Shown: in pieces, positions 439 to 20,559 of the stretch
Layout: each line of letters opens with the position of its first letter
Position numbering within the stretch: position 1 is the first letter of the stretch
Source: a virus
Strand: one strand, 5' to 3'
IMG/VR virus record: IMGVR_UViG_3300032294_000107
Location: 1 to 25,022 of that record
DNA length: 25,022 bases
Made by a program: the position numbers and the translations under genes
Notes under the pieces: generated by a model
Database searches by the model: none
Told to the model about the DNA's origin: nothing
Seen by the model: the letters and a program-made list of their open reading frames with translations, nothing else

Positions 439-1422
439 TCATGCGGGCATAAATTTGTCGGGGTTGACCTGCTTGCCCTGCTTGGCCGTTCCGGTGCGTG
501 CTTTGCGCAGCCTGTCCATCATGGAATACAGGCGCTGCGCCCCGGCCTCGGAGTTCCCGTTGCCAAGGTGGCTCACAACGTCAGCAGGAATCACAAACTC
601 GCCGTGGCTCAACCGGGCCTCCTGTTTTCCATCAATTCGTGCTGGAATTTTATCAGCCATGCCATCTGTTGCGCCACCTAAATATCGACCTTGCGCCAGT
701 GCAGTGATACCTCCCGTCGCGTATTGGGGTACGGGTTTATCCTGAATGACACCTGATGCTGGGCGACCTTCACGGACGTTGGATGACTCCTCACCCTTCT
801 TCGCTGCTTCCGCAGTAGGGTCGGGACGGGCTTGGCGTGCGGGGTTGGCACGGTTGAGGGCTTCCAAGCCTGCGGCTTCTTCGCGTGCAGCAACACGTGC
901 GGTCTCAGCGGCTTCGCCCGGGGCGGCGTACTTCATCTGGGAGAAGTAGCGTTGGCCACCACTGCCGGGTCGGCGGTCAGGATCGTAGGTGCCGGGCGCG
1001 GCTTCACGCACCGCCTCATACTTAGGGATACCGCCTTGGTAGCCTACTTTGTCTTGGGGGCGGTTGGATTGGTAGAGGCCGTACAAGCCACCTGCGGCAG
1101 CGGCCACGTTGCGCCAATCGGTCTTGCCGTCTTTGGTAAACGCACCCTTGAGGGCATTGAACGCCGAAGTGCCAAGCCGGGACAGTAGGTTGCCAACGTC
1201 GAAACCGCCACCCCCGGTGTACCCGGTATCGGTAGACGGGGTAGACCCGATGATGTTGCCATCCAAGTCCATGATGAGGGTAGACCCGTCATCGAAGACC
1301 TGCGTGCGGGTGTAGTCCCCGATGGTGCCCGTACCGGACGTGTTGTCCAAAGGGCCTTGCAGTTGACCTACATCGCCCGTGTCGATGTACTCACCAGTGA
1401 TTTCGTCGTAGTAACCTGCCAT
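439..1422 (-). CDS. Conserved virion-associated protein with C-terminal DGMADKIPA/GEFVIPADVV domain
   Basis: This is a 327-residue protein. I chose the ATG at 1422 over a TTG two codons upstream because GAGGGG sits six bases before the ATG. The giant gene stops at 1425, just upstream. The N-terminal third is acidic and Gly/Thr-rich (GYYDEITGEYIDTGD). A short hydrophobic Ala/Gly segment follows, then a charged Ala/Glu/Arg-rich helix-prone middle. The last ~90 residues form the conserved part: YATGGITALAQGRYLGG, TDGMADKIPARIDGKQEARL, HGEFVIPADVVSHLGNG and a closing basic helix ending NPDKFMPA. I recognise this C-terminal module from proteins next to internal virion genes in short-tailed environmental phages, but know of no proven function. 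It carries the Tyr-Ala-x-Gly-Gly motif found in several neighbours. An ejected or head-internal role is inference from position. Confidence 0.8.
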   Translation of the reverse strand: MAGYYDEITGEYIDTGDVGQLQGPLDNTSGTGTIGDYTRTQVFDDGSTLIMDLDGNIIGSTPSTDTGYTGGGGFDVGNLLSRLGTSAFNALKGAFTKDGKTDWRNVAAAAGGLYGLYQSNRPQDKVGYQGGIPKYEAVREAAPGTYDPDRRPGSGGQRYFSQMKYAAPGEAAETARVAAREEAAGLEALNRANPARQARPDPTAEAAKKGEESSNVREGRPASGVIQDKPVPQYATGGITALAQGRYLGGATDGMADKIPARIDGKQEARLSHGEFVIPADVVSHLGNGNSEAGAQRLYSMMDRLRKARTGTAKQGKQVNPDKFMPA

Positions 1423-1424
1423 CT

Positions 1425-4400
1425 TCAACCCCTCAAAATTTTGAGCAATTCATCATTCACATCATCCATTTCGCCACGAACTGCACCGCCCTGTGCGTAG
1501 GGAGTAACAAACATCTGTTGTTGCGACGGATTGGCAAAAATGCTGCTCCAGTCATAAATGTACCCAATCTTGGCTGGATCGGCTGCTTTTACAGTAACTT
1601 GTTGCCCTCCAGCATCCCCAGACTGCCCCAGCATCTGCATCATGGTGTTCAGGTTGCCCAGACGCTGGGTCTTGAGCGCCGCCTGCTCGTTGGCTGCACG
1701 GGTGCGTGCTGCCTCATCCATGACCAGACGTTGGGTGGTACCAATCTCGCCAAAAATACCCGTTGGTGCCCACTTGGAACCCGGTGCGGGAAGGAACTTG
1801 AACGGTTGGTTCGGATCGGGCTGGCCCAAATCAGGCTGATTGGGGTCTGGGATATACCCCGGCTGCTGCGAGCGCAGCACGGTCTCAATGGCAATCTTGT
1901 CCTTCTGGTCGATTACCTTGTCGCCGTTGTAGTCCAGATTCGGGTCATAGGCACCCTGAGTCTCCAGCAGGTTGATGATGGCATCGAGGTCTTGCTGGGT
2001 GGCAGGTGTAGCCTTCTGGCCAACCGTGGTCTGAAGATCGCCGATCTTGGTGCCAAGACGCTGCTCGGTGTCGGAGATGGCCCGAGTGAGGGCTTCATCC
2101 CGGGCGATACCGGCTTTCTCGTACTCGGCTGCGCGGTCAAGGACTTCTTGCTTGGCCGTTGAGATGTCACCCTTCAGGGTGGCCTCGGTCTGACCAATCT
2201 TAGTCAGGATGTCGTCACGCGTGGTACCAAGTTGAGCAGCAACGTCGTCAACGGCGCGGCCAAGGGCCTCATCTCGGGAGATGCCAGCCTTCTCGTAGTC
2301 GGCCATGCGGTTGAGGATGTTGGTCTCAACATTCCCCAGCGCGGTCGCCATCTCCTCCTTGGCACCCTCGATCTCCTCAGACAAGCCGGTCTTGACCAAA
2401 CCCAACTCTTTGAGGATGGCGTCCTGCGACTCCGTGATCTTGGTGCCGAGGCTGGTCTCGACGTTGCCCACCTGAGTCTTCAGGTTGGCTTCCGTAGTGC
2501 CAATCTGCTTGAGCAGTTCGTCCTTGGTCGTGCCGAGGTTAGACGCCACATCACCGATGGCCTTGGACAGTGCCTCGTCGCGTGCGATACCCGCCTTCTC
2601 GTACTCAGCCATCTTGGTGTAGATGGCCGACTCGGCGTTCTTCAGTTGCGTCGAAAGATCACCAATCTGTTTGCCCAGTGCATCCGACGTGTCTTTGAGT
2701 TTGGTAGTGAAGTCAGCACCGAGGTCGGCGATCTTCACGCCAACATCTTTGAGCGCAAGTTCTGTGGCCTCTTGGTAGGTCTTACCCTGATCCATGAGTT
2801 CCTTGACCTTGGTGTCGAACGCAGTCTTCTGGTCGCCCAGTGCGGTCGTCAGCGTGGTCTGCACGTCACCGATCTTGGTGGTCAGGTCTTCCTGAACCTT
2901 GGTCAGCGCTTCGCTGTTACCCTTGACCGCCGCATCCAGCGCGGCCTTGAAGTCTTTGGAGACACCTGCTGAGGAGTCATCCACGATCTTCTGCACCTGT
3001 GCTTCGGTCAGCCCTGCGGCCTTGAGGTCAGCAATCGCCTTGTCGATGTCGCCAAAGCGACTCGTGTTGCCTTTCTGGGCGTCGCTGATAGCCGTCAGCA
3101 GTGCGTCCTTGGTGGCCCCAACCTCAGAAGATACCTTGCTGATGTCCACGCCGAGGTCGGACAACTGCGCGTTGAAGTCACGCTTGACGGTATCAATCGC
3201 GTCCAGCACTTCCTTGCTTGCAGTGCCTCCGGTGCCATCAGCCAGTGCGTCCAGTTGCTCGATGATCGAGTTGTACCGGGCGGTCGGGATGTAGGCTTCG
3301 GCCTTGCCAGCCAACTCCGATTCAGAGTACTGCCCAACGAACTTCTTGATGTCGTCCGCAGTGGGCTTCTTCAGCCCCAGCAACTCATACGCGGCTTTGA
3401 CTTCGCCCTCATCGACCATGCGGGGGTCAACATACGTACCGATGGCCGCAGCCTGCTGGGACTCATTGACCTGCCCAACGAACCGATTGACTTCGGCATC
3501 GGTCGGCTTGTACCCGAGGTCGGTGAGGTACTTGCGTGCCTCCTCAGCCGTGACTTGCCGGGGGTTCACATAGTCGCCAACAGCCTTGGTCTGATCGGCC
3601 TCAGCCTTGCTACCCACAAACGAACGAATCTCGTCTGCGGATGCGGTATACCCCCGCGACGTGAAGAACGACTTGGCCTCGTCGTAGTTGGTGGCCAACG
3701 GATCGAACTGTGCACGTGCAGCGGCAACCCCAGAGGCTTCGTCCTTCTGCCCGGCCAACTGTGCAGCCTGTTCATCAGTAATGGTGTAGCCTTCGGCAGC
3801 GGCAGCGGCCTTGACCTCACCCACATCCAGTACGCGAGGATCGACATACTGTTCAACCGCTCCAGCCAGATTGATGTTGGACGTTGCGCCAGTAAGGGCC
3901 TTCACATCAGCGTCGGTGTAGGCGAAGTCAGTGCGCTTGCCCAGTGCAGCCTCGGCCTCGGCGCTGCTGGTGTAGGACGCGTCAAACTTGGTGTTGAGCA
4001 GGTTGGCTTGCGTCACGTTGTCGGCCACACCCAGTTTGCTCAACTCAGAGGCAGCGGTCGCAGCGTTCGGCGCGTTGTTGATGGTGTTGGCCACCGTGGG
4101 ATTGGCCAGCAGAGCGTTGGAGATCACGTCGCCCGTGCGGGAACCAGCGTAGGCACCGCCAGCAATCGGGCCACCAGCAATCGCGCCGAAGGCGGCAGCG
4201 GCGGTGATGTTCCCAGCCACATCGCGGTTGGGGTCGAGTTTGTAGAGTTGGCCTTCGAGGAACGCTTGGATCACGCCTTCTTCGCCAGCCTCGGCCACAC
4301 CTTCCTTGATGGCAATCTTGGTGCCCGTCTTGGCAAAGTCGCCCAGCGATTGCAAGGCGTCGCCCAGTCCAGTGCCGGTTCTACCCAGCAGGGCCTTCTC

Positions 4401-6980
4401 GACGGCGGCACCGCCCACACCCATCGACACAGCAGTTGTACCGGCGGCAACCAGCGCACTGCGCTGTGCGATGTCAAGAGCAATCTTGTCAGCGTCAGCC
4501 GCAGACTTACCGGCTTTGATGGCCGTGGCGTAGGCTTCATCGTAGGCGCTCTTGGCAGAACCACCAGCAGACTCGATGATGTCCGTGGTCATGGCAGCAC
4601 TCAGGCCCGCACCTGCGCCGATCCGCGCAGCGACGGCTTCACCATACTTGAGGGCCAGCGTGGCACCCTTGGCACCTGCGGAGGCTACGCCACCGATCAG
4701 CAGCGGTGCAATTTCCTGCACGCCTTCGACACCGACGTACTCGGCCAAGAACTCCAGCGGGGCAGACTTGAACGCCCCATAGATGGCCTTGAGCGTGCCA
4801 CCCACACCCTTGGCGTCGCCGATCATTGACTGCATGTTCTTGATCGCGGCTTGGTACTCAGCGGTGTTTCCGGCCTTACCAATACCTTGCAGTGCATCGG
4901 CGAACTTACCCAGTGCAGTGTTCTTTGGGGCGTACCCGGCCAGCACGGAGATACCGTTGATGGACTCAAGGAAACCACCACCGGCTTTGATGACGTTGGC
5001 AGCGGTGTTGATGATGGTCGAGTTGCCGGTGCTCTTGGCCCAGTTGATAGTCGCCTTGGCAGCGTTGATGAAATACGAACCGAACGTCTTGTCGGTCTTC
5101 GGGTCTTGCTCCGCCGCGACCATCAACCGTTCGACATCGGAAGGCTGACGTTCCCGCACCCCGCTGACAATGATCGTCGGGAGTACATACACCATCTCCC
5201 CAGTAACGGGGTCAAAGCGTGACTTTCCTTGGCCGGTGTCTTTGTAGACCCAAACTGTGTTGCCATCTTTGGTGACATCTGAAGACGCAACACCCCGATT
5301 GACTTCATCCGGTGTGGCATACCGGAACCCGTCAATCATGTTGTATTTGCCGGGGGGTGGTAGTTTCCAACCGCCGTATATAAAGTCCGTGTTGACCTTG
5401 TACCCGTTCTGCGCAGACACCGGCAGCAGTTTGTCGGCCCCACCTGCATCCTTGACGAGTTGTGCCCCAGTGACGTTGTTGAGCGCCCCGAAGTTCTTGC
5501 CATAGTTCGCGTTGAGTCTTTCAACAATCTGAGCCTTATCGGCAGACGCAAGTTGGTTTACCGTAACGCCCTTGGCTGCGGCAACCTCGCCAATGATTCG
5601 GTTTCTTTCCGAAGCAATATACGGCTCTGCGGCCTTGTCGTTGGTAGCCAGCCCTTTGAACATACCTGTGGACAGGTAGTGTTCGTACACGTCAACATCG
5701 GCACCGAGGTTGTTGATCTCTCGATACTGCGCGGCGTTAAAGTTGGGATCAAGGGCGCTGACAAACGCTTGGTTGGAGTTGTCGGTAAACGTGCCGACAT
5801 TCTTGCCCAGCGCGGTGGACGCATCTTGCAGCGTCTTGCTGGCATCAGTAAATGTTTTTTCGAGCGGGGTGTACGCGGCCTTCAGTTCATCCAGTTTGGT
5901 CTTGTAGGTGTCCAACGTACCCTTGTTGTCTTCCCAATACTTGTTGTACTTGGTGACGTACTCATCCGCAGCCTTGGCAGCGGCGTTGACATTCTCAACG
6001 TATGCGTTAGCGCCTTCGGTATCCCCAGCGTCAACTTTGGCTTGCCAGATGGCTTTCTTATCGTTGTAGTCCTTGACCAACCGCTCATGCTCCGTCCCCA
6101 TGCCTTTGACGGTGTTGACGATGGCGTTGTACTTGTCGGCGTAGTAGGTCTGCGACTCGTAGTTAGACTGGATGGCGTTTTGGGCGTCCTGCGCAGCGGC
6201 GTATTTGGCCTGCGTGGCCGCAACATCTTTTTTCAACTGTTCACGGGCAATTCCGTCGAACAGGTTCTTGGCTAGGATGTCCGCAGACTTATTGATGAGC
6301 GCCCGTTGAGCGGCTTCTCCGACGTTCTTGTTTTGAAGGGCCGCAGTGAGCGCACCAGACAGAGTGCCAGTGACCAGTTGAACCACATCCTTGTTGGCCG
6401 TGTCTGCCAACACCGTGGACGAGCCGGGGATCGACTTGATGGCACTGTCCAGAATGCCGGTAGAAGTAATCAGAGATTGCGCTACCGCTGAGGGGACGTT
6501 GCCCCCAGTGACTGCTGCACGTGCCGTGGCTGTAACCGCAGCCTGCACAGGTTTGGGTAGGTCTTTGAACCCCGGGATGTTGCCGAGCACCGCGCCTGCG
6601 GAAGACGCAAAACCCGCGATAGCCCCGGTCTCAAGGTCTTGGCCGCGCACCACGGCTTGCGCAACGCCTGATGCGACGTTACCGACAATCGTACCAGCGA
6701 GCGTACTCCCCGTGGCTGACGCCACGGACGTACCCACAACATCTCCGACGTAGCCGCCCACGTAGGTGGCCACACCACCTACCACGGCTGACTTTAAGAC
6801 ATCTGAGACGCTACCCCCCTGCGCGGCGGTGATCGTGCCTGCAATGATACCGGTACCGATGGCGGTAGCAGCGGCGGTTGAAACAGTTGCACCAATCAGC
6901 GTGGCGGCAACCGCCGTACCAATGGTCGCAGCAACACCCGTAGCGGCGGCAGCAACAAGGACGACTGCGGCTACAGGCAT
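1425..6980 (-). CDS. Giant internal virion / DNA-ejection-type protein (1851 aa)
   Basis: This is by far the largest gene in the window. Residues 1-130 are a long Ala/Gly/Val/Thr-rich hydrophobic region with few charges, able to insert in or cross membranes. Residues ~240-400 are charged and helical, rich in Lys, Tyr and Asn. A second Ala/Gly-rich hydrophobic stretch lies around 750-960. About four degenerate 46-residue repeats (~1040-1240) carry YVDPR and FVGQ signatures. A long coiled coil (~1270-1660) holds three copies of YEKAGI(A/S)RDEAL. An EF-hand-like loop is at 1683-1694, and the C-terminus has PYAQGGAVRG and an acidic tail. The size, hydrophobic plus coiled-coil layout and place after the nozzle gene resemble ejected proteins of short-tailed phages. 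No lytic transglycosylase motif was seen. A tape-measure role is the alternative, less likely without tail-tube genes. Start: ATG two bases after the previous stop, with TTGGAG upstream. Confidence 0.8.
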   Translation of the reverse strand: MPVAAVVLVAAAATGVAATIGTAVAATLIGATVSTAAATAIGTGIIAGTITAAQGGSVSDVLKSAVVGGVATYVGGYVGDVVGTSVASATGSTLAGTIVGNVASGVAQAVVRGQDLETGAIAGFASSAGAVLGNIPGFKDLPKPVQAAVTATARAAVTGGNVPSAVAQSLITSTGILDSAIKSIPGSSTVLADTANKDVVQLVTGTLSGALTAALQNKNVGEAAQRALINKSADILAKNLFDGIAREQLKKDVAATQAKYAAAQDAQNAIQSNYESQTYYADKYNAIVNTVKGMGTEHERLVKDYNDKKAIWQAKVDAGDTEGANAYVENVNAAAKAADEYVTKYNKYWEDNKGTLDTYKTKLDELKAAYTPLEKTFTDASKTLQDASTALGKNVGTFTDNSNQAFVSALDPNFNAAQYREINNLGADVDVYEHYLSTGMFKGLATNDKAAEPYIASERNRIIGEVAAAKGVTVNQLASADKAQIVERLNANYGKNFGALNNVTGAQLVKDAGGADKLLPVSAQNGYKVNTDFIYGGWKLPPPGKYNMIDGFRYATPDEVNRGVASSDVTKDGNTVWVYKDTGQGKSRFDPVTGEMVYVLPTIIVSGVRERQPSDVERLMVAAEQDPKTDKTFGSYFINAAKATINWAKSTGNSTIINTAANVIKAGGGFLESINGISVLAGYAPKNTALGKFADALQGIGKAGNTAEYQAAIKNMQSMIGDAKGVGGTLKAIYGAFKSAPLEFLAEYVGVEGVQEIAPLLIGGVASAGAKGATLALKYGEAVAARIGAGAGLSAAMTTDIIESAGGSAKSAYDEAYATAIKAGKSAADADKIALDIAQRSALVAAGTTAVSMGVGGAAVEKALLGRTGTGLGDALQSLGDFAKTGTKIAIKEGVAEAGEEGVIQAFLEGQLYKLDPNRDVAGNITAAAAFGAIAGGPIAGGAYAGSRTGDVISNALLANPTVANTINNAPNAATAASELSKLGVADNVTQANLLNTKFDASYTSSAEAEAALGKRTDFAYTDADVKALTGATSNINLAGAVEQYVDPRVLDVGEVKAAAAAEGYTITDEQAAQLAGQKDEASGVAAARAQFDPLATNYDEAKSFFTSRGYTASADEIRSFVGSKAEADQTKAVGDYVNPRQVTAEEARKYLTDLGYKPTDAEVNRFVGQVNESQQAAAIGTYVDPRMVDEGEVKAAYELLGLKKPTADDIKKFVGQYSESELAGKAEAYIPTARYNSIIEQLDALADGTGGTASKEVLDAIDTVKRDFNAQLSDLGVDISKVSSEVGATKDALLTAISDAQKGNTSRFGDIDKAIADLKAAGLTEAQVQKIVDDSSAGVSKDFKAALDAAVKGNSEALTKVQEDLTTKIGDVQTTLTTALGDQKTAFDTKVKELMDQGKTYQEATELALKDVGVKIADLGADFTTKLKDTSDALGKQIGDLSTQLKNAESAIYTKMAEYEKAGIARDEALSKAIGDVASNLGTTKDELLKQIGTTEANLKTQVGNVETSLGTKITESQDAILKELGLVKTGLSEEIEGAKEEMATALGNVETNILNRMADYEKAGISRDEALGRAVDDVAAQLGTTRDDILTKIGQTEATLKGDISTAKQEVLDRAAEYEKAGIARDEALTRAISDTEQRLGTKIGDLQTTVGQKATPATQQDLDAIINLLETQGAYDPNLDYNGDKVIDQKDKIAIETVLRSQQPGYIPDPNQPDLGQPDPNQPFKFLPAPGSKWAPTGIFGEIGTTQRLVMDEAARTRAANEQAALKTQRLGNLNTMMQMLGQSGDAGGQQVTVKAADPAKIGYIYDWSSIFANPSQQQMFVTPYAQGGAVRGEMDDVNDELLKILRG
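1899..1934 (-). other. EF-hand / dockerin-like calcium-binding loop in the giant protein
   Basis: Residues 1683-1694 read DYNGDKVIDQKD. This places Asp1, Asn3, Asp5, Ile8, Asp9 and Asp12 as in a 12-residue EF-hand loop, with a helix-like KIAIETVL stretch after it. Glycine, usual at position 6, is replaced by Lys, but Gly4 is present as in dockerin loops. Calcium binding is inferred from the motif alone. A single loop without a paired second hand may be structural rather than regulatory. Confidence 0.55.
2060..2620 (-). repeat. Three copies of a YEKAGI-RDEAL coiled-coil repeat
   Basis: Within the giant gene, the residue string YEKAGI(A/S)RDEAL occurs three times. The matching DNA lies near 2096-2130, 2269-2305 and 2576-2612. 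Each copy is followed by a helix of the form AI.D....LGT, and two continue into TT(K/R)D(E/D)(I/L)L..IG.TEA.LK. Copy spacing is unequal (about 170 and 307 bases), so this is a modular coiled-coil duplication rather than a strict tandem array. Codons for the core differ at synonymous sites, so the copies are not recent. Confidence 0.75.
3265..3870 (-). repeat. Four degenerate ~46-residue repeats in the giant protein
   Basis: Four consecutive units each contain a (Y/F)(V/D)(D/N)P(R/L) start, an acidic helix with (G/A)EVKAA or similar, a GYT/GYK/GLK turn with T(D/A)(A/D)E or similar, and an FVGQ/FVGS/LAGQ end. For example, one unit has YVNPRQVTAEEARKYL and then KPTDAEVNRFVGQ. The units correspond to residues ~1040-1240. 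They look like small helical bundles in tandem. I know similar repeats from large virion proteins of environmental phages, but not a demonstrated role. Confidence 0.7.
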
Positions 6981-6981
6981 T

Positions 6982-7422
6982 TCAGAACTCCAAGTAGTAG
7001 GCGGTGTAAGTCTTGCCGTCTTCGGGCATCGTCACTTGCCGTTTCTGGAACGGCAGGCGCGACCGCTTGGCCACCATCTCGTATCGGTTGTCGTCGGCGT
7101 AGGTGTACGCCACTCGGACGCCGATGCCTTTGAGGTACTGCACCAGCATGACGAAGTTCTTGGCCAGCGAGGAGACAGTCTCATCGACCGCCATGGTGTG
7201 CACCTCCACCATGCGCTTGCCCTTGACCATTACGAGGAACAAGGTATTCCCTAAGTGCACAAGACGGATGCCGTCCTTCTGCACAAGAGCGGCCAGCCCA
7301 CTGAGCATGCGGTTGGTTTCTTCCTCGTTTCCTCCCGTCTGTTGACGGAAGTACTCCGTGGCGATGCGCATGATCTCTTTGCCTTCGTCCTCTGCCACTG
7401 CGTATTTATCTTTATCAGCCAT
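6982..7422 (-). CDS. Conserved phage protein of unknown function (146 aa)
   Basis: This 146-residue soluble protein starts at an ATG six bases after a GGAG. Its stop lies one base before the giant gene's start, so the two are probably translationally coupled. The N-terminal ~45 residues are acidic and helical (EDEGKEIMRIATEYFRQQ). The rest alternates strands and helices: RLVHLGNTLFLVMVKGKRM, VEVHTMAVD, a helix SLAKNFVMLVQYLKGIG, then VRVAYTYADD and YTAYYLEF. That strand-helix-strand pattern, with a central helix after VHTMAVDE, is reminiscent of a degenerate GNAT acetyltransferase fold as in some T7-type virion proteins. I see no acetyl-CoA loop (R/Q-x-x-G-x-G/A), so enzymatic activity is not supported. 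Its place between nozzle-like and giant proteins suggests a virion or ejection accessory. Confidence 0.75.
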   Translation of the reverse strand: MADKDKYAVAEDEGKEIMRIATEYFRQQTGGNEEETNRMLSGLAALVQKDGIRLVHLGNTLFLVMVKGKRMVEVHTMAVDETVSSLAKNFVMLVQYLKGIGVRVAYTYADDNRYEMVAKRSRLPFQKRQVTMPEDGKTYTAYYLEF

Positions 7423-7432
7423 TGTGTTCTCC

Positions 7433-8089
7433 TTACACCGCGCTCACAAACGTAAGTGTAGCGACAACAGAGGGAATTGAGGGCATTGCGAACGGGGTTG
7501 TTTGTGCGGGGTAGGCTTCCATCGCAACCGCAGTGTTGTTTACCGCAGCAAACAACTTCACAAAATCCCCGGGGGCAAGTTGCACGTAAAAATTCGCCGC
7601 TGCAATGGCGTGGCCGTCTACAGAACCGTGCCGAGACACAACGGAAAACTGACTCGCCGTCCCAACCGCATCGGTGTCGTTGACCCTTAGCCAAATCCAA
7701 GCGTCGTGTATCTGAGAATCTGTGTTGCGCCACTGCACGCTGAACTGATAGTTGTAGATGCCACCCACCTCGATACCAATACCGTTCGTCCCATCGTTGG
7801 TACATGCGGACAGATAGTCGTTCTGGTCGAACGTGATCTCAGTAGCCGTATTGGCGGTAAACGTCCTATCCGTTGTACGCTGAATTGAGGCGTAGGGAAA
7901 GTACAGGTTGGAACCGCCCGGCGCAACGTCTGCCAACGGAGGGCTGATCAGCGCATTGAAGGACTGCGTGAGGCGGTTGTAGAACAGCCGCTGGACGTTG
8001 TTGAGTTGATCTTGGTACGGACGGTCATACTGCTCCCGCGCCTGCGGGAGGGCAGGCGGCGCGATCTTCTGGAGCAGCGGTGCGCTCAT
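7433..8089 (-). CDS. Virion structural protein, N-terminal helix plus jelly-roll-like domain
   Basis: This is a 218-residue protein whose ATG overlaps the stop of the upstream 701-residue gene (ATGA). Residues ~15-50 (REQYDRPYQDQLNNVQRLFY) form a charged amphipathic helix, a likely anchor. From ~65 onward the sequence is beta-rich with alternating hydrophobic and polar residues: TFTANTATEITFDQN, IYNYQFSVQWRN, DAWIWLRVN, NFYVQLAPGDFVKLFAAVNN. The 'Y.FS.QW.N' and 'W.RVN' strands and the 'L.PGD.V.L' turn resemble TNF/C1q-like jelly-roll domains common in phage tail or head-surface proteins. That is a fold guess from the strand pattern. No catalytic motif is seen. Position after the nozzle-like gene suggests a tail-tip or small fibre component. 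Confidence 0.75.
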   Translation of the reverse strand: MSAPLLQKIAPPALPQAREQYDRPYQDQLNNVQRLFYNRLTQSFNALISPPLADVAPGGSNLYFPYASIQRTTDRTFTANTATEITFDQNDYLSACTNDGTNGIGIEVGGIYNYQFSVQWRNTDSQIHDAWIWLRVNDTDAVGTASQFSVVSRHGSVDGHAIAAANFYVQLAPGDFVKLFAAVNNTAVAMEAYPAQTTPFAMPSIPSVVATLTFVSAV

Positions 8090-10191
8090 CGACGACCATC
8101 CGCACGCATGTCAATACGGGCAGAACCCATCTGCCACGTCACACCCAAATCGGTGGACTCCACCTTCATGGCCATCTGACGCCCACGAATACGGGTGAAA
8201 ATCTGCCCAGTGAACTGCTCGACCGGCAGCACCGCAGTGCGCGTCACTGACGCAAAACTGTCGTTGGCCACCGAGTGGTTGGCGTTCGTCGCGGTGTTCA
8301 CCGAGTACCCAGAACCCGAGTTCTTCAAGGGCAGCAGGTACATCGTCACGTTGGGGTTTGCAGCCGTGGAGTTGGCGAACGTGATGTCGGGCAGCACGCG
8401 CCAGACGAACATGAAGTTGTGGCCATCGTCGAGGTCAAATTCAGATGACGTGATGTAGGACGTGATGGCGGCAGGAGTACCGTTCAGGTTGTCATCCAGC
8501 CCTTCCTCATGGTTCACGAGGTTGTTCACGTAGGTCGCAGCCAGCGGGTAGTTGCGCAGGCCCGAATCGAGCCATGCAGTGCGTGCCATCTGCCCGTAGT
8601 ACCAAATGTCCTCCATGTAGTTGTAGACCGCATAGCGATCCACCATGGTGGAGTTAGCCGAGCAATAGAACCACCAGATTTCGTGAAAGCCCTCGCTCGT
8701 GCCAGCGAACACCTGCGGGTACTGCGAAGTGTTGATGTCCTCAAAGATGTAACGGCGGATGTCGCAACGCAGGGCCTGCGTACGACCGTCGTACTTGTAG
8801 AACTTGTCCTTGCCCATCCAGTACGACACGCCATTGGCGAACGCCACGGCGTTCTGGCCAACCAATGAGATGTTGTCGCCCACCAACTGAGCGCCCCACA
8901 CAATCGGGGCACCAACGTACTGAAGCGAGTACAGGGCCGCATCCGTCCACACCAGAATTTCCTGACGGGACTGAATGGCCGTGATGATCTCAGAGCCCCG
9001 TGACAGCCGCAGGAAGCCTGCTTGGTTGGTCGATGCGGGAGTCCAGTTATACGGGTCTTCCTGATCGCACCAGCGGATCAACATGGGGTCAAACGTGGCC
9101 GAGCCGTAGTCGTTGCACCCGAAGGCGAACACAAAGCGGTTGATGTCCGAGATGAGCAGGTAGTTCTGCTCCAGCGGCACGTCCGTAGCCCCGCCAAAGT
9201 CATTGAGCAGGTATGCGTTGGATGAGATGCGACAGGTGCCGGTCGCAGCAACCGTGACTTGGATAAGCGCCCCATTCGGCGTCGCTGAGATGTTGAACGA
9301 GGTACCCGAGGGGTTGCGCACGTAGTAGGTTTGCCCGGCAGTGATGCCCGCAGGCATCGTAGCCCCAGACTCGGGGAAGAAGCGCAGCGGCGTGCCTTCA
9401 GGGTACTCAGCAGCGGTCGTGATCACGGTGGGGTTGGCCACCGTGGCAGAGAACGTGTTGGGGCTGAATCCCGAGGACGCATCCCAGTAGTAGATGCCAC
9501 CGCCGCGAGGGCCAAAGATCAGGTCTTCACCAAAGTTGCCTTGGCTCCACAGACGGATGGCGTCAGTGGACGGCTGGCCGATACCCCACGTGCCAGAGCC
9601 CCAAGGGCCTGCGCCCCATCCGACCAGCGGCACGACGAACGCCGGGCCGACGTTGATCTGGTAGACGGCTTGGACAGTACCACCCACGCCAGCCCCGCTG
9701 GCCGAAGCGTTGGTACCCACGTCGATGGTGTACTTGTTGGTGCCCGAGATGGTCAGTTCGTACTGGCCGTAGATAGTCACGCCGTTGACGGTCACCGAAG
9801 GGTAGAACGACACAAAGTCGCCGTCGATGTAGCCACCGTTGGCGTCGGTCACTTCCACGATTGGAGAGCCGCTGAAGGTCTCAAACGGATTGGTCAGCGT
9901 CACATGATCGCGGTATGGCGTGATGTCGTTGTACGCACCGCCCGACTCAAGATAGAACTTGAGGTTGGTGCCCACGCCGATCAGGTTCACAGAACCCAGC
10001 GTGACCCAGTTCCACAGCGAGCGGCAGATGCCAAGGAACGTAGTGCTCGAAATGCGCTGCCAGCCGCCGATCTTCTCGGGCGTGCCTTGACGGAAGCGAA
10101 TCTTGTCGCAGTCGTACCAGCCCCCTTCATTGGTGTACCGCGTGTTCTCGCGGTTGACCCCGGGCTTGAGCGCGATCTTCTTCAGTGGCAT
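8086..10191 (-). CDS. Large tail protein, probable nozzle / tail-tip component (701 aa)
   Basis: This 701-residue, Trp/Tyr-rich, beta-dominated protein has a conserved N-terminus: GVNRENTRYTNEGGWYDCDK followed by IRFRQGTPEKIGGW. Such proteins occur widely in late operons of environmental short-tailed phages. The body reads like a beta-propeller or nozzle. It has repeated SLWNWVTLGSVNLIGVGTN-type strands, several IWWFY/YYWD aromatic clusters, and a middle segment with FGCNDYGS and WCDQEDPYNW. P22 gp10 and T7 gp12 nozzle proteins are the functional analogues I have in mind. The assignment rests on size, strand content and position, not on a proven family match. It begins one base after the endolysin stop, with GAGG upstream. 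No transmembrane segment or enzyme motif is apparent. Confidence 0.75.
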   Translation of the reverse strand: MPLKKIALKPGVNRENTRYTNEGGWYDCDKIRFRQGTPEKIGGWQRISSTTFLGICRSLWNWVTLGSVNLIGVGTNLKFYLESGGAYNDITPYRDHVTLTNPFETFSGSPIVEVTDANGGYIDGDFVSFYPSVTVNGVTIYGQYELTISGTNKYTIDVGTNASASGAGVGGTVQAVYQINVGPAFVVPLVGWGAGPWGSGTWGIGQPSTDAIRLWSQGNFGEDLIFGPRGGGIYYWDASSGFSPNTFSATVANPTVITTAAEYPEGTPLRFFPESGATMPAGITAGQTYYVRNPSGTSFNISATPNGALIQVTVAATGTCRISSNAYLLNDFGGATDVPLEQNYLLISDINRFVFAFGCNDYGSATFDPMLIRWCDQEDPYNWTPASTNQAGFLRLSRGSEIITAIQSRQEILVWTDAALYSLQYVGAPIVWGAQLVGDNISLVGQNAVAFANGVSYWMGKDKFYKYDGRTQALRCDIRRYIFEDINTSQYPQVFAGTSEGFHEIWWFYCSANSTMVDRYAVYNYMEDIWYYGQMARTAWLDSGLRNYPLAATYVNNLVNHEEGLDDNLNGTPAAITSYITSSEFDLDDGHNFMFVWRVLPDITFANSTAANPNVTMYLLPLKNSGSGYSVNTATNANHSVANDSFASVTRTAVLPVEQFTGQIFTRIRGRQMAMKVESTDLGVTWQMGSARIDMRADGRR

Positions 10192-10192
10192 G

Positions 10193-11061: not shown

Positions 11062-11063
11062 GG

Positions 11064-11480: not shown

Positions 11481-11489
11481 GCTCATCTC

Positions 11490-11862: not shown

Positions 11863-11872
11863 GGATTACTCC

Positions 11873-11903
11873 AAAAATGCAGCCGCTGGAATCGGGCAGC
11901 GGC
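11873..11903 (-). terminator. Possible Rho-independent terminator between tail and lysis genes
   Basis: On the minus strand a 7-base-pair GC-rich stem (GCCGCTG / CAGCGGC at 11882-11903, 8-base loop) is followed after TGCA by TTTTT. It lies in the 56-base gap between the DUF7936-type gene and the 64-residue gene. The U-run is short and four bases off the stem, so it may be only partial or may serve as an mRNA-stabilising hairpin. Confidence 0.45.
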
Positions 11904-11918
11904 GAAACCCGTCAAACA

Positions 11919-12263: not shown

Positions 12264-12281
12264 GATTTTTCCTTTCAGTGA

Positions 12282-16118: not shown

Positions 16119-16129
16119 CTACTGTCCTT

Positions 16130-17032
16130 TCATGTGACAACTTCTTGCCAGCCCGCTGTTTGCGTATCACTCACGACATTCCAGTTGGATGTCTGAGTAT
16201 CGTTGACATTTTGCCAGTTTGCGTTCTGTCCGTCATCAATTTGGCCCCAAACATTCACATCGCCAATCAAACCAGTTGCTTGGACGCCCGTCGGCAGGGC
16301 AGTGGCCCCACCCGTGGCGACCACATCGCCCAACTGCATGGTGCCAGAAACACCCGTGACGGAGACGACGATGGACAGGGAGAACGAAACTTGGCCAATG
16401 GCTCCGGTCGCCTCCACCCCGGTGGGGAAGACGTTGGCCGTGCCAGTGACATTGACGGTGCCCACTGCACCTGTTGCGGAGACCCCGGTCGGGTAGACGT
16501 TGGCCTCGGCGATGACCACCACGGTGCCCACAGCACCAGTGGCAGCAAGCCCGGTGACCGGGACATTGGCGTCCGCAGTGACCTGAACGGTGCCCAGTTG
16601 GGTTGTACCAAAGACGCCCGTGACCTGCACGATGGCGTCGGCCTGAACCACGACGGTTCCGACCTGCCCGACGGCTTGGAGTCCCGAGGGGTAGACGTTC
16701 GCATCGCCAGTGACCTGAACGGCCCCGATGAAGCCGTCAGCCTGTACCCCAGTGGGATAGACGTTGGCCTCAGCGATGACCACCACGGTGCCAATGGCAC
16801 CCGTAGCGGAGACCCCAGTGGGGAAGACGTTGGCGTCTGCCTGAACGAGGACAGAACCAACCTGACCCGTAGCCTCAAGGCCCGACGGGTAGACGTTTGC
16901 ATCAGCGGTGACGGCGACGGTACCAACCGCGCCTGTACCCGTGACATTTGAATGGCCGACACCCCACCCTTGGTCGCCCCAAGCAACGCCTGAAGCGCCC
17001 CAACCTTCAAAGGCTACCTTTGCATCAGCCAC
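16130..17032 (-). CDS. Tandem-repeat virion protein, probable tail appendage (300 aa)
   Basis: Ten perfect-length 22-residue units (residues 31-250) and a half unit make up most of this protein. The consensus is ATGAxGTVVVxADANVYPTGV: two short strands, a conserved Asn-Val, and a Pro-Thr-Gly turn. Regular strand-turn units of this kind would stack as a beta-solenoid or small beta domains. The N-terminus is Trp/Gly-rich (FEGWGASGVAWGDQGWG). The C-terminus has a second short repeat, NWQNVNDTQTSNWNVVSDTQ. I recognise GTV.V.ADANV.PTGV repeats from marine phage tail proteins of unproven role. The start is GTG at 17032 with a GGTGAG just upstream. It sits immediately before the main fibre gene, so a fibre-associated appendage is likely. 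Confidence 0.82.
   Translation of the reverse strand: MADAKVAFEGWGASGVAWGDQGWGVGHSNVTGTGAVGTVAVTADANVYPSGLEATGQVGSVLVQADANVFPTGVSATGAIGTVVVIAEANVYPTGVQADGFIGAVQVTGDANVYPSGLQAVGQVGTVVVQADAIVQVTGVFGTTQLGTVQVTADANVPVTGLAATGAVGTVVVIAEANVYPTGVSATGAVGTVNVTGTANVFPTGVEATGAIGQVSFSLSIVVSVTGVSGTMQLGDVVATGGATALPTGVQATGLIGDVNVWGQIDDGQNANWQNVNDTQTSNWNVVSDTQTAGWQEVVT
16247..16942 (-). repeat. 10.5 tandem 66-bp units with 264-bp higher-order period
   Basis: The 22-residue units repeat without a single length change. Units 3, 4, 5 and 6 best match units 7, 8, 9 and 10 respectively, which means a four-unit block was duplicated. The DNA supports this: 16497-16528 and 16761-16792, exactly 264 bases apart, differ at one position in 32. 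Other units are diverged, so the base array is older than the block duplication. Confidence 0.85.
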
Positions 17033-17042
17033 CTACTCACCA

Positions 17043-17477
17043 TCAAGCGATGCGCAGGATCGCGTTGGATGCGTCTGCGGCGGGGAACTGGATGGTGAAG
17101 TTGCCAGCGGTAGATGTCTTGTCGCCACCGAAGTCCAGCACAGCAACCGCAGGGTTGGTCGTGCCGTTGGCCAGATAGATCAACGCGCCACGCGCAGTGA
17201 TCGTGGCGGTGCTCCATGTGACATCCGAGAAGTCGATGAACGCCGTGGTGCCGCTGGAAGTGGGCACCTGACTGATCGTCAGAGCCTGTCCACCTGCGCT
17301 GTACCCGGTTCCGGTCACTTCGTTGGACGTGGTGTACGCGGTCGTGGCGGCGCTCAGAGTGGCCGACGACGTGTACAACGCGATCTTGAAGGTTTGAGTC
17401 GTGCCAGTGCCAAAGTCGAAGTCCCCATCGAGGATACCGACCTTGAACGAAGTGCACATTGCTTGCGTGATTGCCAT
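17043..17477 (-). CDS. Conserved phage virion protein (MCTSFK family, 144 aa)
   Basis: This 144-residue beta-rich protein has the conserved opening AITQAMCTSFKVGILDG. This is followed by TFKIALYTSSATLSAATTAY, a TGTGYSAGGQALT turn, ITARGALIYLANGT and a C-terminal strand region ending AILRIA. I recognise this family as one of the most common small structural proteins in environmental phages, usually near adaptor and tail genes and without named function. The even spread of short strands and lack of helices fits a jelly-roll or tail-surface domain. An ideal TTAAGGAG lies seven bases upstream of the ATG and overlaps the stop of the preceding adaptor gene. No metal-binding or catalytic motif is visible. 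Confidence 0.8.
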   Translation of the reverse strand: MAITQAMCTSFKVGILDGDFDFGTGTTQTFKIALYTSSATLSAATTAYTTSNEVTGTGYSAGGQALTISQVPTSSGTTAFIDFSDVTWSTATITARGALIYLANGTTNPAVAVLDFGGDKTSTAGNFTIQFPAADASNAILRIA

Positions 17478-17488
17478 GAGAATTCTCC

Positions 17489-18124
17489 TTAACTGACAGG
17501 GATACGGACTTGCCCAGAGCGATACGCATCCTGACGCAGTTTGCCGTCGCCCAGATTTTTCAACAGACCAATGGCCTGCACATACAGCCGCTCGTAGAGG
17601 GCCACCATGTCCTGCTCACCCTTCATGAAGCGAATGGCTTCAACCAGTGCACCATTGAGGAGAGCAGAATCAAACTCGTTGCCAAGCCACGTGGTTCCCG
17701 CCGTGACGATGGACTCAGGGTAGTAGCCGTAATGCAATTCGGCGCTGTAGGCCAGATCAGGAGTGGGGCCAAGGATGAACGCGGAGTCGTCGAAGTTGGC
17801 GTAGTGCTTTGGGCGACCACGTGATGCCAAGTTGTTCTTTGGGTACGCCTCACGGATGAAGTTCACGTCCTTGTTCAGAAGGTAGTGATATTCACCACTT
17901 GCGTCAATCACCGCCAGCGAGTAGCAGTACAAGAAGTCAGACGGAATCTGAAGGTACGCGTTGCCAATCGACATCGAGCCCGTCACGTTCTTGCGCAACG
18001 CAGGAATCTGCACCGTGTTGTAAATCTTCTGCTCGGCCTGTTGCGTGAACATGGCGAGTTCCGTCGATGAGAACTCGTTCTCACAGATGTCTTGGATGTT
18101 GACGCACAACTCGGTGTAGTTCAT
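17489..18124 (-). CDS. Head-to-tail adaptor protein (SU10 adaptor-like)
   Basis: A 211-residue, helix-rich protein. The N-terminus has YTELCVNIQDICENEFSSTE and LAMFTQQAEQKIYNTVQIPA, followed by a small beta domain with ALRKNVTGSMSIGNAYLQIP and SDFLYCYSLAVIDASGEYHY. A final helical region reads LLNGALVEAIRFMKGEQDMV and ALYERLYVQAIGLLKN. This helix, beta insert, helix order, with 'IP.DFL...S' in the middle, is what I know from adaptor proteins that sit below the portal ring in SU10-type and related short-tailed phages. It would bridge the portal to the nozzle. The AGAGGT ribosome site is well placed. A P22 gp4-like role is the alternative, but the 236-residue gene upstream fits that better. Confidence 0.75.
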   Translation of the reverse strand: MNYTELCVNIQDICENEFSSTELAMFTQQAEQKIYNTVQIPALRKNVTGSMSIGNAYLQIPSDFLYCYSLAVIDASGEYHYLLNKDVNFIREAYPKNNLASRGRPKHYANFDDSAFILGPTPDLAYSAELHYGYYPESIVTAGTTWLGNEFDSALLNGALVEAIRFMKGEQDMVALYERLYVQAIGLLKNLGDGKLRQDAYRSGQVRIPVS

Positions 18125-18133
18125 GGCTACCTC

Positions 18134-18328
18134 TTAGGCCATCGGGCCTCGACTCGTCACGCCTTTGGTGGCCGCGCCAGCGCCGCGCATCTTGATGCCG
18201 CTGGTCTTGATCTCGGGGTACGGATCAGCCCGCTTGTTCCCGGCGACCGTGCGGGTGTTCTTCAGGTCTTCCTTGACCGATTCAACACCGGCCTCGGCCA
18301 TCTTGAATGGTTTGATCTTGCCAGCCAT
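18134..18328 (-). CDS. Small basic phage protein (64 aa)
   Basis: This 64-residue protein is rich in Lys, Gly and Ala: KIKPFKMAEAGVESVKEDLK, then KRADPYPEIKTSGIKMRGAG and an Ala/Gly/Thr tail. It has no hydrophobic core long enough for a membrane helix and no cysteines. AAAGGAG six bases upstream of the ATG is an ideal ribosome binding site, and the flanking genes leave 9-11 base gaps, so it is translated. I recall similar 'IKTSGIKMRG.GAATKG' endings in environmental phage proteins next to adaptor genes. The basic, disordered-looking character resembles the small-protein cassette further upstream. Function is unknown. A virion-associated or nucleic-acid-contacting peptide is possible. Confidence 0.7.
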   Translation of the reverse strand: MAGKIKPFKMAEAGVESVKEDLKNTRTVAGNKRADPYPEIKTSGIKMRGAGAATKGVTSRGPMA

Positions 18329-18339
18329 ACTCGACTCCT

Positions 18340-18729
18340 TTACGTTGTCACTACCGTTACTGTACCAACTTGTCCTTGAGCAACCAAGTTATTTGGTGTC
18401 AAGCCAGCATCATAACTACGCGAACCACCCACAGGGTTCCATCCCCATTGAATGTTTCTACTTCCTTCACCAATCGAGCCATCTGCTAACAGGCCAGACT
18501 GCACGTAGGTGTTGTCCGGGCGCGGGTTGCGCAGAGCCTGCGGATCATCCACAGGATACATGCCCAACTGCAACTGCGGTTGGTCAGGCTCCCAGCACTC
18601 CTTGCACACCAACATGTTGACCTGCTTGGTCTTGATGACCAGCGTGCGCAACTCGCGCAGGCGAAAGCGAAACCCGCATCGGTCGCAGATCGCAATGGCG
18701 ATCTTGGCTGACGCGTACCGATTGCCCAT
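18340..18729 (-). CDS. C4 zinc-type phage protein with Gly-rich C-terminus (129 aa)
   Basis: Cys15-x2-Cys18 (CDRCGFRFRL) and Cys42-x2-Cys45 (CKECWEPD) make a zinc-finger-like N-terminal half. A conserved YPVDDPQALRNPRPD segment follows. The C-terminal third is Gly/Ser/Asn-rich and ends in AQGQVGTVTVVTT, which resembles one unit of the 22-residue repeats in the 300-residue protein nearby. This Cys pattern plus DDPQALRNPRPD is a familiar but unnamed phage family, usually found beside connector genes. The ATG overlaps the stop of the upstream connector gene (TGATG). Two readings are possible: a virion protein with a structural zinc site, or a small DNA-contacting factor. A hand-read drop in GC toward the 3' end hints at a grafted tail. 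Confidence 0.75.
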   Translation of the reverse strand: MGNRYASAKIAIAICDRCGFRFRLRELRTLVIKTKQVNMLVCKECWEPDQPQLQLGMYPVDDPQALRNPRPDNTYVQSGLLADGSIGEGSRNIQWGWNPVGGSRSYDAGLTPNNLVAQGQVGTVTVVTT

Positions 18730-19439
18730 CAGCCGCCTCCGATGTACGAGCGACGGGGCACAAAGCGCACCGACGCCTTCTCACGATCTTCTCCTGCGGC
18801 CAGATCAAACTGCTCCTCGTACGCGGCCTTGAGCATGGGCACACGTTCGGCCAGTTCAGGCACCTTCATGGCGATGTGATAGGCCAGCCCAGCGGTCAGC
18901 GCGGGTAGGAAGCGGAAGTTGGCGTCGGCGGTCTCAACACCCGCGCCTGCGTCCTGAATACGGCGCATGCGCCAGTACTTGAAGACGTAGTAGGGATTGT
19001 TGATCGTGCCCTGATCGGGTACCGGCCAGACGACAATCTTAGGGTTATCCCGCAGGCGGCGAACCCACACTTGGATGGGGCGGGCCTGCTGGAGTTTGTT
19101 GGGGATGGTGGCGTAGGTAGAAACACTGATACGCGTGATGGCCAGATCGGCCTGCGTGGAGACGTTGCCTTCACCTGTGCGGATCACGTGATCCAGCAGG
19201 TCGATGGTGTCCGCAGGAAGATCGTACTCTGCGATACCTTGTCCAAGGTTGACTGACCCCTCGTCAATCGTCCACATGTTGATGCCACGGTTCTGCCACT
19301 CGATGGTCATCAAGTTCATGGAGCGACGAGCAGTGCGCAGGTCATAGCCTGTGCGCATCTCGCGGCCAGCCCGCTCCCACGCCTCCTCGGCGATCTCAGT
19401 GAATTCGAGATTGAAGTCGGTCGTGCCCGAAGTCGTCAT
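18729..19439 (-). CDS. Tail accessory / connector protein (P22 gp4-like)
   Basis: This 236-residue helical protein has the N-terminal stretches FNLEFTEIAEEAWERAGREM, TGYDLRTARRSMNLMTIEWQ and NRGINMWTID. This '(E)IAEEAWERAG.E.....L..ARRSLN....EW.NRG.N.W' pattern is what I know from the P22 tail accessory factor group (gp4-like), which binds under the portal and seals packaged DNA. A beta insert (EYDLPADTIDLLDHVI, IQVWVRRLRDNPKIVVWPVP) and a C-terminal helix (ALTAGLAYHIAMKVPELAER) complete the fold. The ATG overlaps the TAA of the previous gene (TAATG). With the 211-residue adaptor two genes downstream it would make a two-tier connector. P22 gp4 also has muramidase activity; I cannot assess that here. 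Confidence 0.78.
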   Translation of the reverse strand: MTTSGTTDFNLEFTEIAEEAWERAGREMRTGYDLRTARRSMNLMTIEWQNRGINMWTIDEGSVNLGQGIAEYDLPADTIDLLDHVIRTGEGNVSTQADLAITRISVSTYATIPNKLQQARPIQVWVRRLRDNPKIVVWPVPDQGTINNPYYVFKYWRMRRIQDAGAGVETADANFRFLPALTAGLAYHIAMKVPELAERVPMLKAAYEEQFDLAAGEDREKASVRFVPRRSYIGGG

Positions 19440-19672
19440 TACCTGTACCCCGCTGTCTTCTTGGCGATGTTCTTTGGCTGGGCAACGAACTGTTTGCCCT
19501 TGGCTTTGCCAGCACGCTTGGCGCGGGTTGTGGCGGCGTACTCGGCGGGACTGAGTGCCTTGATGGCTGCGTCAGGCAAATATCGCTCCCCCGTCTTGCT
19601 CGACGGCTTACCGGACTTGGTACGCCATTTCTGGTCTGTCCAGTCCTTGAGCGATTTCTGCGGTGACTTCAA
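19439..19672 (-). CDS. DUF5872-type small basic protein
   Basis: The conserved core is LKSPQKSLKDWTDQKWRTKS, GKPSSKTGERYLPDAAIKAL, SPAEYAATTRAKRAGKAKGK and QFVAQPKNIAKKTAGYR. I recognise this as the DUF5872 family, found in many phages and giant viruses. It is very basic and has no known function. Start is uncertain. A TTG at 19672, overlapping the previous stop (ATTGA) with a G-rich run upstream, gives 77 residues and covers exactly the conserved core. The only in-frame ATG (19738) would add 22 non-conserved residues and overlap the neighbour by 70 bases. The stop overlaps the next gene's ATG. Binding to nucleic acid is plausible from charge only. Confidence 0.78.
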   Translation of the reverse strand: MKSPQKSLKDWTDQKWRTKSGKPSSKTGERYLPDAAIKALSPAEYAATTRAKRAGKAKGKQFVAQPKNIAKKTAGYR

Positions 19673-20001
19673 TCTCGGTACCCCCCGCCCTTTTCCTTGT
19701 ACTGCTTGGCCAGCAACTGCGCCTTGCGGGCGCTCCATTGCCCTGCCCCAGTGCCCTGCACGGCCTGCCCCTTGATCTTCTCAAAGAGCGACTTACGCAT
19801 GCCCGGCTTGGTGTAGTTCCCGGCCTCGTTGACCTTGGACTTGACAGCCCCGCCTTCCGCGTACATGGTGAACTCGTCGCCGTCCTTGCGGCGCTTGGTC
19901 ACGCCGTTGTCGTTGAACTTGTCACCGTCCTTGCGGCGCATGGTTTTGCCGCCCGGCATCTTGCTGGGCATGATGGCTCCCATACCCCGACTGGCCATCA
20001 T
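19669..20001 (-). CDS. Small Lys/Gly-rich phage protein with YAEGG motif (110 aa)
   Basis: The N-terminus is Met/Gly/Lys-rich (MMASRGMGAIMPSKMPGGK). Two copies of RRKDGD(K/E)F follow about 15 residues apart, then MYAEGGAVKSKVNEAGNYTK. The C-terminal part reads MRKSLFEKIKGQAVQGTGAG and QWSARKAQLLAKQYKEKGGG, a conserved pattern in environmental phage small proteins ('W.ARKAQ.LAK.YK..GGGY'). The ATG overlaps the preceding stop (ATGA). High positive charge and low hydrophobicity suggest a disordered, possibly virion-packaged or nucleic-acid-associated protein. It shares the Tyr-Ala-x-Gly-Gly signature with three other proteins in this window. Gene status is firm; function unknown. Confidence 0.75.
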   Translation of the reverse strand: MMASRGMGAIMPSKMPGGKTMRRKDGDKFNDNGVTKRRKDGDEFTMYAEGGAVKSKVNEAGNYTKPGMRKSLFEKIKGQAVQGTGAGQWSARKAQLLAKQYKEKGGGYRD

Positions 20002-20261
20002 ACGAAGGTACCTTTCGTCTTGCCACGCTTGGCAACGCCGTCTGCACGCTTGGAAGCGGAACCCACAGACCCGCCCGTCTTAAACCCCGTGGAGGCAGCA
20101 GGAGCGGCATTACGAGCGGCCATGCGGCTGCGAAAAATGCGACTACCTGAGCCCGTGGGCGCGGGTGCAGATGCGGGTGCAGCGGCAGGCACGGACGATT
20201 TGGCCGTATTGATTGCAGTGGTCGCTGCGTTAGTCATACCCTTGATGGCTTTCCCAAACAT
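19998..20261 (-). CDS. Small basic protein with C-terminal RADGVAKRGKTKG signature (87 aa)
   Basis: I start this gene at the ATG at 20261 because AGGAGG lies five bases upstream. An open frame extends 26 codons further, but it would overlap the neighbour and has no ribosome site. The protein begins MFGKAIKGMTNAATTAINTA, passes through an Ala/Pro-rich linker, then an Arg/Ala helix (GSRIFRSRMAARNAA). It ends KTGGSVGSASKRADGVAKRG followed by KTKGTFV. That ending is nearly the same as in the two genes upstream, so the C-termini form a paralogous signature set. I know the RADGIA(K/Q)(K/R)GKT(K/R)G ending from other environmental phages, always unexplained. A targeting or packaging tag is a hypothesis only. 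Confidence 0.75.
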   Translation of the reverse strand: MFGKAIKGMTNAATTAINTAKSSVPAAAPASAPAPTGSGSRIFRSRMAARNAAPAASTGFKTGGSVGSASKRADGVAKRGKTKGTFV

Positions 20262-20271
20262 ACCGACCTCC

Positions 20272-20559
20272 TCAGTACATCTTGCAGTTGGTCTTACCCT
20301 TCTTGGCAATACCGTCTGCGCGTGCGGAAACAGAGCCACCCTTCTTCATGCCGGGCACTTTGGGCGGCATCTTCTGAGGGGCTTTCTTCTGCATGTCGGC
20401 CTTGGCCATGCCACGACCTTCACGCTTCATCATGGGGCTCTCAGGAGGCATGCCACGCATCGGGCGCTTGGGTGCGGGCGTAACAGAGCCACCATCGGGT
20501 TCCATGGGAGGCTGACCCATTTCGGCGGTGTAGATACCGCCCTCGGCGTATTTTTTCAT
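20272..20559 (-). CDS. Small Met/Lys/Pro-rich protein with YAEGG and ADGIAKKGKT motifs (95 aa)
   Basis: The start is the ATG at 20559, which overlaps the previous stop (TGATG) and has AGGCGGG nearby upstream. A GTG two codons earlier is possible. It opens MKKYAEGGIYTAEMGQPPME. A Pro/Met/Arg-rich middle follows (PKRPMRGMPPESPMMKREGR). The end reads MKKGGSVSARADGIAKKGKT and then a short NCKMY. It thus carries both recurring signatures of this window: YA-x-GG at the N-terminus and ADGIAKKGKT at the C-terminus. No membrane helix or fold is apparent, and most of it is probably disordered. Function is unknown. The neighbouring small basic genes suggest a shared job in the virion or on DNA. Confidence 0.72.
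   Translation of the reverse strand: MKKYAEGGIYTAEMGQPPMEPDGGSVTPAPKRPMRGMPPESPMMKREGRGMAKADMQKKAPQKMPPKVPGMKKGGSVSARADGIAKKGKTNCKMY

Follow-up and report, generated by a model that had tools for sequence, protein, structure and literature searches.

Genes of the window and the recurring motif

The window is the whole stretch of DNA that was analyzed, 25,022 nucleotides of the virus record IMGVR_UViG_3300032294_000107 (IMG/VR), and it is probably a fragment. It contains, in order, the end of a scaffold gene, a capsid protein similar to Mu gpT (PF10124), and a cassette of small basic genes headed by a DUF6321 protein. These are followed by neck proteins, a fibre resembling tail-fibre families, matches to a holin and an endolysin, and three proteins of 701, 1851 and 327 amino acids (aa), the first of which matches virion structural proteins. 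The gene order resembles the structural half of the cultured Planktothrix phage Pag-Yong1. A short peptide, [YFM]-A-x-G-G, recurs in proteins of the cassette and in the 1851-aa and 327-aa proteins, and is the subject of this analysis.

A preliminary description of the window, made by reading the sequence, had reported a Tyr-Ala-x-Gly-Gly-(Ala/Ile) motif in four otherwise dissimilar proteins. All four copies are present as described, in frame on the minus strand and in four separate, convincing open reading frames. The copies differ in their codons, which rules out a repeat at the DNA level and indicates that selection or descent acts on the peptide. From composition, 0.15 copies of [YF]A.GG[AIV] are expected in the window, and none of 5000 within-protein shuffles reached the 4 that are seen. 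Over the whole window the Gly-Gly pair (GG) alone shows no enrichment, and the excess resides in the YAxGG context.

The form of the motif requires some correction. The first position accepts Met as well as it does Tyr or Phe, and any residue may follow GG; the core is therefore [YFM]-A-x-G-G. KGGSV and KAGGKV, which had been listed as degenerate relatives, belong to a looser class. The consensus of 180 non-redundant sites, chosen with the Ala and GG fixed, is [K/G]-[YMF]-A-x-G-G-x-[V/A/T], in which Lys often precedes the motif and Val is often located two positions after GG.

Distribution of the motif in related genomes

The motif was counted in nine near-complete relatives (eight genomes and Pag-Yong1), with genes called by a simple codon-usage caller. 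On the structural strand, the one bearing the capsid gene, [YF]A.GG is found 53 times (8.6 expected) and MA.GG 21 times (3.5 expected), while the opposite strand has 1 (1.7 expected) and 0 (0.9 expected), respectively; these counts are not independent events, since the genomes are related. When all 400 ab.GG patterns are ranked, YA.GG and MA.GG stand directly behind GG.GG. Most of the excess is gone if the spacing is increased by one residue ([YFM]A..GG, 19 versus 11.7 expected), and [DEST]A.GG is not enriched (34 versus 36 expected). In Pag-Yong1 alone, [YF]A.GG[AIV] is found 3 times in 34 structural genes (0.19 expected) and in none of the 68 other genes; UMO76003 (61467-62351), UMO76005 (63319-64920) and UMO75986 (51312-52238) are among its motif-bearing proteins. 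The association with virion genes suggested in the preliminary description is supported by these numbers, as the motif is not equally common elsewhere.

The cassette proteins are rich in Gly, Ala, Lys and Met, and YAxGG might arise accidentally in such Gly/Ala-rich disordered proteins. The expected values of 0.15 for the window and 8.6 for the relatives come, however, from shuffles that keep the composition, and GG is invariant in homologues. Together these results already refute an origin by chance, which we consider extremely improbable. The position of the motif is conserved among homologues of the 327-aa, 1851-aa and 110-aa proteins (GG in 70/70, 18/18 and 122/122, respectively), as the earlier proposal would have it, but only poorly among those of the 95-aa protein. 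[YFM]AxGG is a real and conserved short linear motif at the protein level, and it has apparently not been described in the literature.

Glycine runs were filtered out before the carriers of the motif were listed, and a glycine-run artefact was thereby rejected. The carriers are the cassette proteins, the proteins in the slot of the 1851-aa protein, the 327-aa family, a family of about 590 aa with tandem copies (MAAGGIVGYADGGAVGYAGGG), a 784-aa protein of one relative in which a transglycosylase (SLT) domain begins at the motif, along with a few singletons. The family counts of 13 and 11 are of single-linkage clusters, which can split diverged orthologues, and a cautious count is about 8 gene slots. 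The position of the motif within the carrier varies. No carriers are found among the terminase, capsid, scaffold and fibre proteins of the near-complete relatives once glycine runs are excluded. The sole carrier among shell and neck proteins is the portal protein of one relative (G010, positions 36654-39212), whose C-terminus ends with MAHGGQVHNQKLEHAEMDRIAKLLQGNRE, like the C-terminal tag of the ejection-block proteins (see below).

A polyvalent-type protein of 2.0-2.7 thousand residues with an HExxH motif is encoded in 9/9 near-complete relatives (for example L253:13495-19635), directly downstream of the motif-bearing block. In one of them (G001) it has LPD39 and a DarB-like region. The large polyvalent protein of Pag-Yong1 (OL906435, positions 3-8321) has two HExxH motifs. 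ALARGG and FARGG sites in the polyvalent protein of about 2 thousand residues look helical and are not counted as support.

Location of the motif at module borders

The motif joins a conserved module to a variable or exchangeable part in four settings: between leader and module in the cassette, between body and short helix in the 1851-aa slot, between body and GEFV element in the 327-aa slot, and immediately ahead of the SLT domain in one relative. The features of the window are listed in Table 1.

Table 1. Motif copies, carrier proteins and neighboring cassette proteins in the window
Feature	Position	Strand	Remarks
327-aa protein	442..1422	-	Counterparts in the same gene slot of near-complete relatives
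C-terminal module after motif (RYLGGATDGMADKIPA...LSHGEFVIPADVV)	442..705	-	By eye similar to the C-terminal element of tape-measure proteins such as lambda gpH
YATGGI	706..723	-	70 homologues: Y 0.51, A 0.93, G 1.00, G 1.00, I/L 0.95
1851-aa protein	1428..6980	-	Large, repetitive, in virion region
C-terminal tag YAQGGAVRGEMDDVNDELLKILRG	1428..1499	-	Motif and short predicted helix (DELLKILRG)
YAQGGAV	1479..1499	-	P-[YF]-A-x-G-G-x-V kept in 18/18 homologues ([YF] 1.0, A 1.0)
Basic cassette protein (phrog_14910)	19442..19672	-	Without motif
110-aa cassette protein	19672..20001	-	Leader, YAEGG and basic module (phrog_17747)
Module after joint, KSKVNEAGNYTKP...GGGYRD	19672..19842	-	Complete stand-alone protein in HTVC034P and MEP402
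YAEGGAV joint	19843..19863	-	GG in 122/122 homologues; Y.89, A.68, K.31 at A position
Leader MASRGMGAI..SKMP..RRKDGDEFT	19864..20001	-	With other modules, or almost alone, in relatives
87-aa cassette protein	20001..20261	-	C-terminus KTGGSV..SKRADGVAKRGKTKG; degenerate relative of motif, without YA
95-aa cassette protein	20275..20559	-	N-terminal motif, C-terminal KKGGSVSARADGIAKKGKT
YAEGGI	20533..20550	-	Position poorly conserved; YADGG/FADGG kept in relatives G001, G002 and G005
126-aa cassette protein	20562..20939	-	N-terminal SKKQHNFMAA module, then GG joints
MASGG	20670..20684	-	Fifth [YFM]AxGG instance of the window, in 126-aa protein
FMKGG	20796..20810	-	End of SKKQHNF module; FAKGG in several relatives
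DUF6321 protein (PF19846)	21179..21436	-	Head of cassette; without motif

This arrangement is seen in the 110-aa cassette protein and its homologues. The same leader, ending in YAEGG, is followed by four unrelated modules, KSKVNEAGNYTKP... (81 distinct forms), GLYANIHAKRKRIAAGSG..., EVWDKARPKGLG...AGRPYPNLVDNMR, and EVWDKPNPKKKST. The first three of these are found elsewhere as complete proteins or as the starts of proteins, and they begin at the place of YAxGG. The stand-alone counterparts are located in HTVC034P and MEP402 (MAKRKSTVNKAGNYTKP...), in HTVC168P and S-RIP2 (MAKRGLYANI...), and in Pag-Yong1 (MAKVPWKRPAPKGIRP...). As the modules occur both fused and alone, the motif sits at the borders of exchangeable modules. 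Leader and YAEGG are also found with only a 6-residue tail (TAKGKK), and here the motif is kept though nothing is linked.

Among the four reported cases the weakest is that of the 95-aa protein, where the motif is N-terminal; a tblastn search of cultured phages with this protein gave no match. In the 126-aa protein, the SKKQHNFMAAVANNPSFAKKAGVPQSVGQEF module (residues 1-43) has 74% identity over 43 residues to PHIKZ165.1 of phiKZ. This SKKQHNF module stands alone in phiKZ and BUCT555; PHIKZ165.1 contains 58 aa and lacks the motif. The module is present in many jumbo phages, where annotated virion structural proteins sometimes begin with it.

The 1851-aa protein is probably tape-measure-like or internal, judging from its position and length. 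Proteins in this slot, directly before the 327-aa gene, end with [YFM]AxGG-x(2-20)-[DE]xL[LIM]x[IL]L[RK]. The tag stands on about ten dissimilar bodies. When the 150 residues preceding it are clustered with strict settings, they form about a dozen groups with no detectable similarity to one another; laxer settings merge the groups through low-complexity repeats. The tagged bodies are positional equivalents, and the slot may therefore hold one fast-evolving protein with a constrained end rather than the products of independent gains of the tag.

In the alignment of the 327-aa family, GG, GE and V are invariant, and [FY]AxGG is followed by GE[FV]V within about 40 residues (YATGG and then IPA...GEFV in the window). 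A similar layout is found in lambda gpH, where FATGG (residues 733-737) and YATGG (residues 778-782 of 853) flank a GEFV element. Seven further tape-measure proteins, from Arthrobacter, Mannheimia, Acinetobacter, Vibrio, Pseudomonas, Klebsiella and Escherichia phages, share this layout, with Ala or Ser at the second position; having been picked as relatives of gpH, they show conservation and not independent recurrence. In the lambda-type C-terminus [FY]-[AS]-x-GG thus stands before GE[FV]V and often again after it. On the other hand, neither the size nor the neighbors of the 327-aa protein are those of a tape-measure protein, and the cassette carriers have no GEFV element. The likeness to gpH was seen by eye, with no significant search match, and the 327-aa protein has no Pfam or PHROG match. 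A scan of bacterial genomes for prophages with the 327-aa profile found only three metagenome-assembled contigs, with no clear host.

In the predicted structure of the 110-aa protein, the motif is in a stretch with predicted local distance difference test (pLDDT) values below 50, and the module after it forms two helices. The AlphaFold2 model of the 327-aa C-terminal module is uninformative (mean pLDDT 55, predicted template modelling score 0.22). Profile searches of the Protein Data Bank (PDB) for both modules, including the 327-aa profile, gave no matches. A relationship to Kelch repeats was also considered, as Y-A-x-GG-Y resembles the kelch GG motif and a gpH query weakly matches designed SAKe propellers in the PDB. 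This was rejected: tandem units of about 50 residues are missing from the carriers, and there is no propeller in the low-confidence models.

Possible functions of the motif

The sequences give the motif a clear anatomy: it lies at module joints, is nearly confined to small, basic virion proteins that are probably ejected, and looks like a docking or processing tag. The preliminary description had proposed a common packaging, ejection or processing tag. The identity of the carriers, chiefly small basic proteins of the cassette and the block of peptidoglycan-hydrolase, polyvalent and tape-measure-like proteins, fits this proposal. It is not favored by the absence of the C48 and S78 protease families from 18 relatives or by the ejection proteins of P22, which lack the motif.

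Our tentative preference is that packaged or ejected proteins use the motif for docking. [YFM]AxGG would be an exposed, disordered element recognized by a conserved component of the head, portal or tail lumen, which we postulate. All proteins that have to enter the particle and to exit by way of the portal or tail channel would bear the same tag, and shuffling of modules at the joint would let new cargo gain it in one step. This reading is favored because the motif is enriched on the structural strand, its GG is invariant in three families, and its carriers are cassette and ejection-block proteins. The retention of the motif before a 6-residue tail and on the C-termini of dissimilar bodies also argues for it, as does its presence in tape-measure proteins, which leave through the tail as well. 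In addition, the block holds SLT and LPD39/DarB-like proteins. Peptidoglycan hydrolases and polyvalent proteins are of types that are packaged and ejected, and by analogy the SLT and polyvalent proteins of this phage may be as well. The low pLDDT of the motif in the 110-aa model would be consistent with an exposed element.

Several observations weigh against docking. The motif is no general signal for ejection, as P22 ejection proteins contain no [YFM]AxGG. In HTVC034P and MEP402 the module of the 110-aa protein is encoded without leader or motif, and the motif is thus dispensable for the role of the module there. Lys replaces Ala in about 31% of the 110-aa homologues, and the N-terminal copy of the 95-aa protein is poorly conserved. 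Packaging of the small cassette proteins is presumed from gene position, and the partner is a postulated component.

The motif could instead be a turn or flexible hinge between modules, spread by recombination of the cassette and by descent of tape-measure-type C-termini, in which case it would be a reused linker with no recognizing partner. Its usual location at module edges, the low confidence of this stretch in the 110-aa model, and the existence of the same modules fused and alone are all in keeping with a hinge, and the shared leaders mean that part of the recurrence is due to common descent. However, a plain linker needs no Tyr, Phe or Met followed by Ala at a fixed spacing, and the similar [DEST]A.GG is not in excess. 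The motif is also retained where nothing is linked and near the extreme C-termini of dissimilar bodies. We regard the structural joint as a real but somewhat doubtful possibility.

It appears unlikely that a protease of the phage or its host cuts at GG as the head or tail matures, parting leader from module. The proteases of adenovirus, T4 and phiKZ type cut at motifs of their own. The conserved residues before GG and the free residue after it are as in non-prime-side recognition, the stand-alone versions of three modules start where the cut would fall, and tandem copies are present in the family of about 590 aa. A polyvalent-type protein with HExxH is present in all nine near-complete relatives, and cleavage is known for the tape-measure proteins of both lambda and T5 (PMC10038345). 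The cut in T5 is located after R1127, however, and is not described as a GG site (PMC10038345). Neither Peptidase_C48 (PF02902) nor the S78 prohead protease (PF04586) scored above the cut-off in the 18 relatives, these being the two protease families searched. Several carriers have a proline directly after GG, which most endoproteases reject, and the 20 residues taken off P22 gp7 by host OpdA do not end at GG. Other explanations, chance included, make up the small remainder.

Comparison with known systems

To our knowledge, selection of head cargo and its exit with the DNA are known only for T4 and a few other phages. The T4 capsid-targeting sequence is N-terminal and is cut by the phage protease at a Glu site. 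It is one short sequence found on internal virion proteins that otherwise have nothing in common; PMC10052503 refers to propeptide targeting in T4. [YFM]AxGG is likewise common to several unrelated families, which are presumed to be internal to the virion. In contrast, the motif here is at joints or C-termini, and there is no S78 prohead protease in the 18 relatives.

The GG-X sites of adenain, African swine fever virus (ASFV) and Ulp1-type proteases have GG after a hydrophobic residue, in small basic core-type proteins. The motif resembles them in both respects, but its hydrophobic residue is one position further from GG, Ala is required, and no C48-type protease was detected. The head propeptides of phiKZ type, which are cleaved by gp175/gp245, belong to modular head proteins with removable N-terminal parts, and the SKKQHNF module is held in common. 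The cleavage site of the phiKZ type ends in Glu, not in GG, and PHIKZ165.1 is without the motif.

A broader version of the docking proposal can be stated, although we think it improbable. [YFM]AxGG would then be a widespread address tag, recognized by some conserved part of the portal or tail channel, on proteins that have to be threaded out (small packaged basic proteins, podophage ejection proteins, and siphophage or myophage tape-measure proteins). If these five residues do predict cargo, the cargo proteins of many uncultured phages could be called from sequence. The fusion of one leader to several unrelated modules at the motif is a clear piece of anatomy, even if the motif is a joint or a cleavage site.

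Other features of the locus

A search of the literature for DUF6321, for Pag-Yong1 and for small basic proteins of virions had no result. In PHROGs, DUF6321 is the C-terminal module of several longer phage proteins (141-928 aa), and is thus itself a mobile end module. A 300-aa protein at positions 16133-17032 of the window consists of degenerate repeats of about 20 residues (ANVYPTGVxATGAVGTVxVxA). Further recurring short C-terminal peptides, RGAGAATKGxxxRGPMA and SxRADGxAxKGKTKG, are located in the cassette (positions 18137-18328 and 20001-20559), and each is found on several proteins in relatives.

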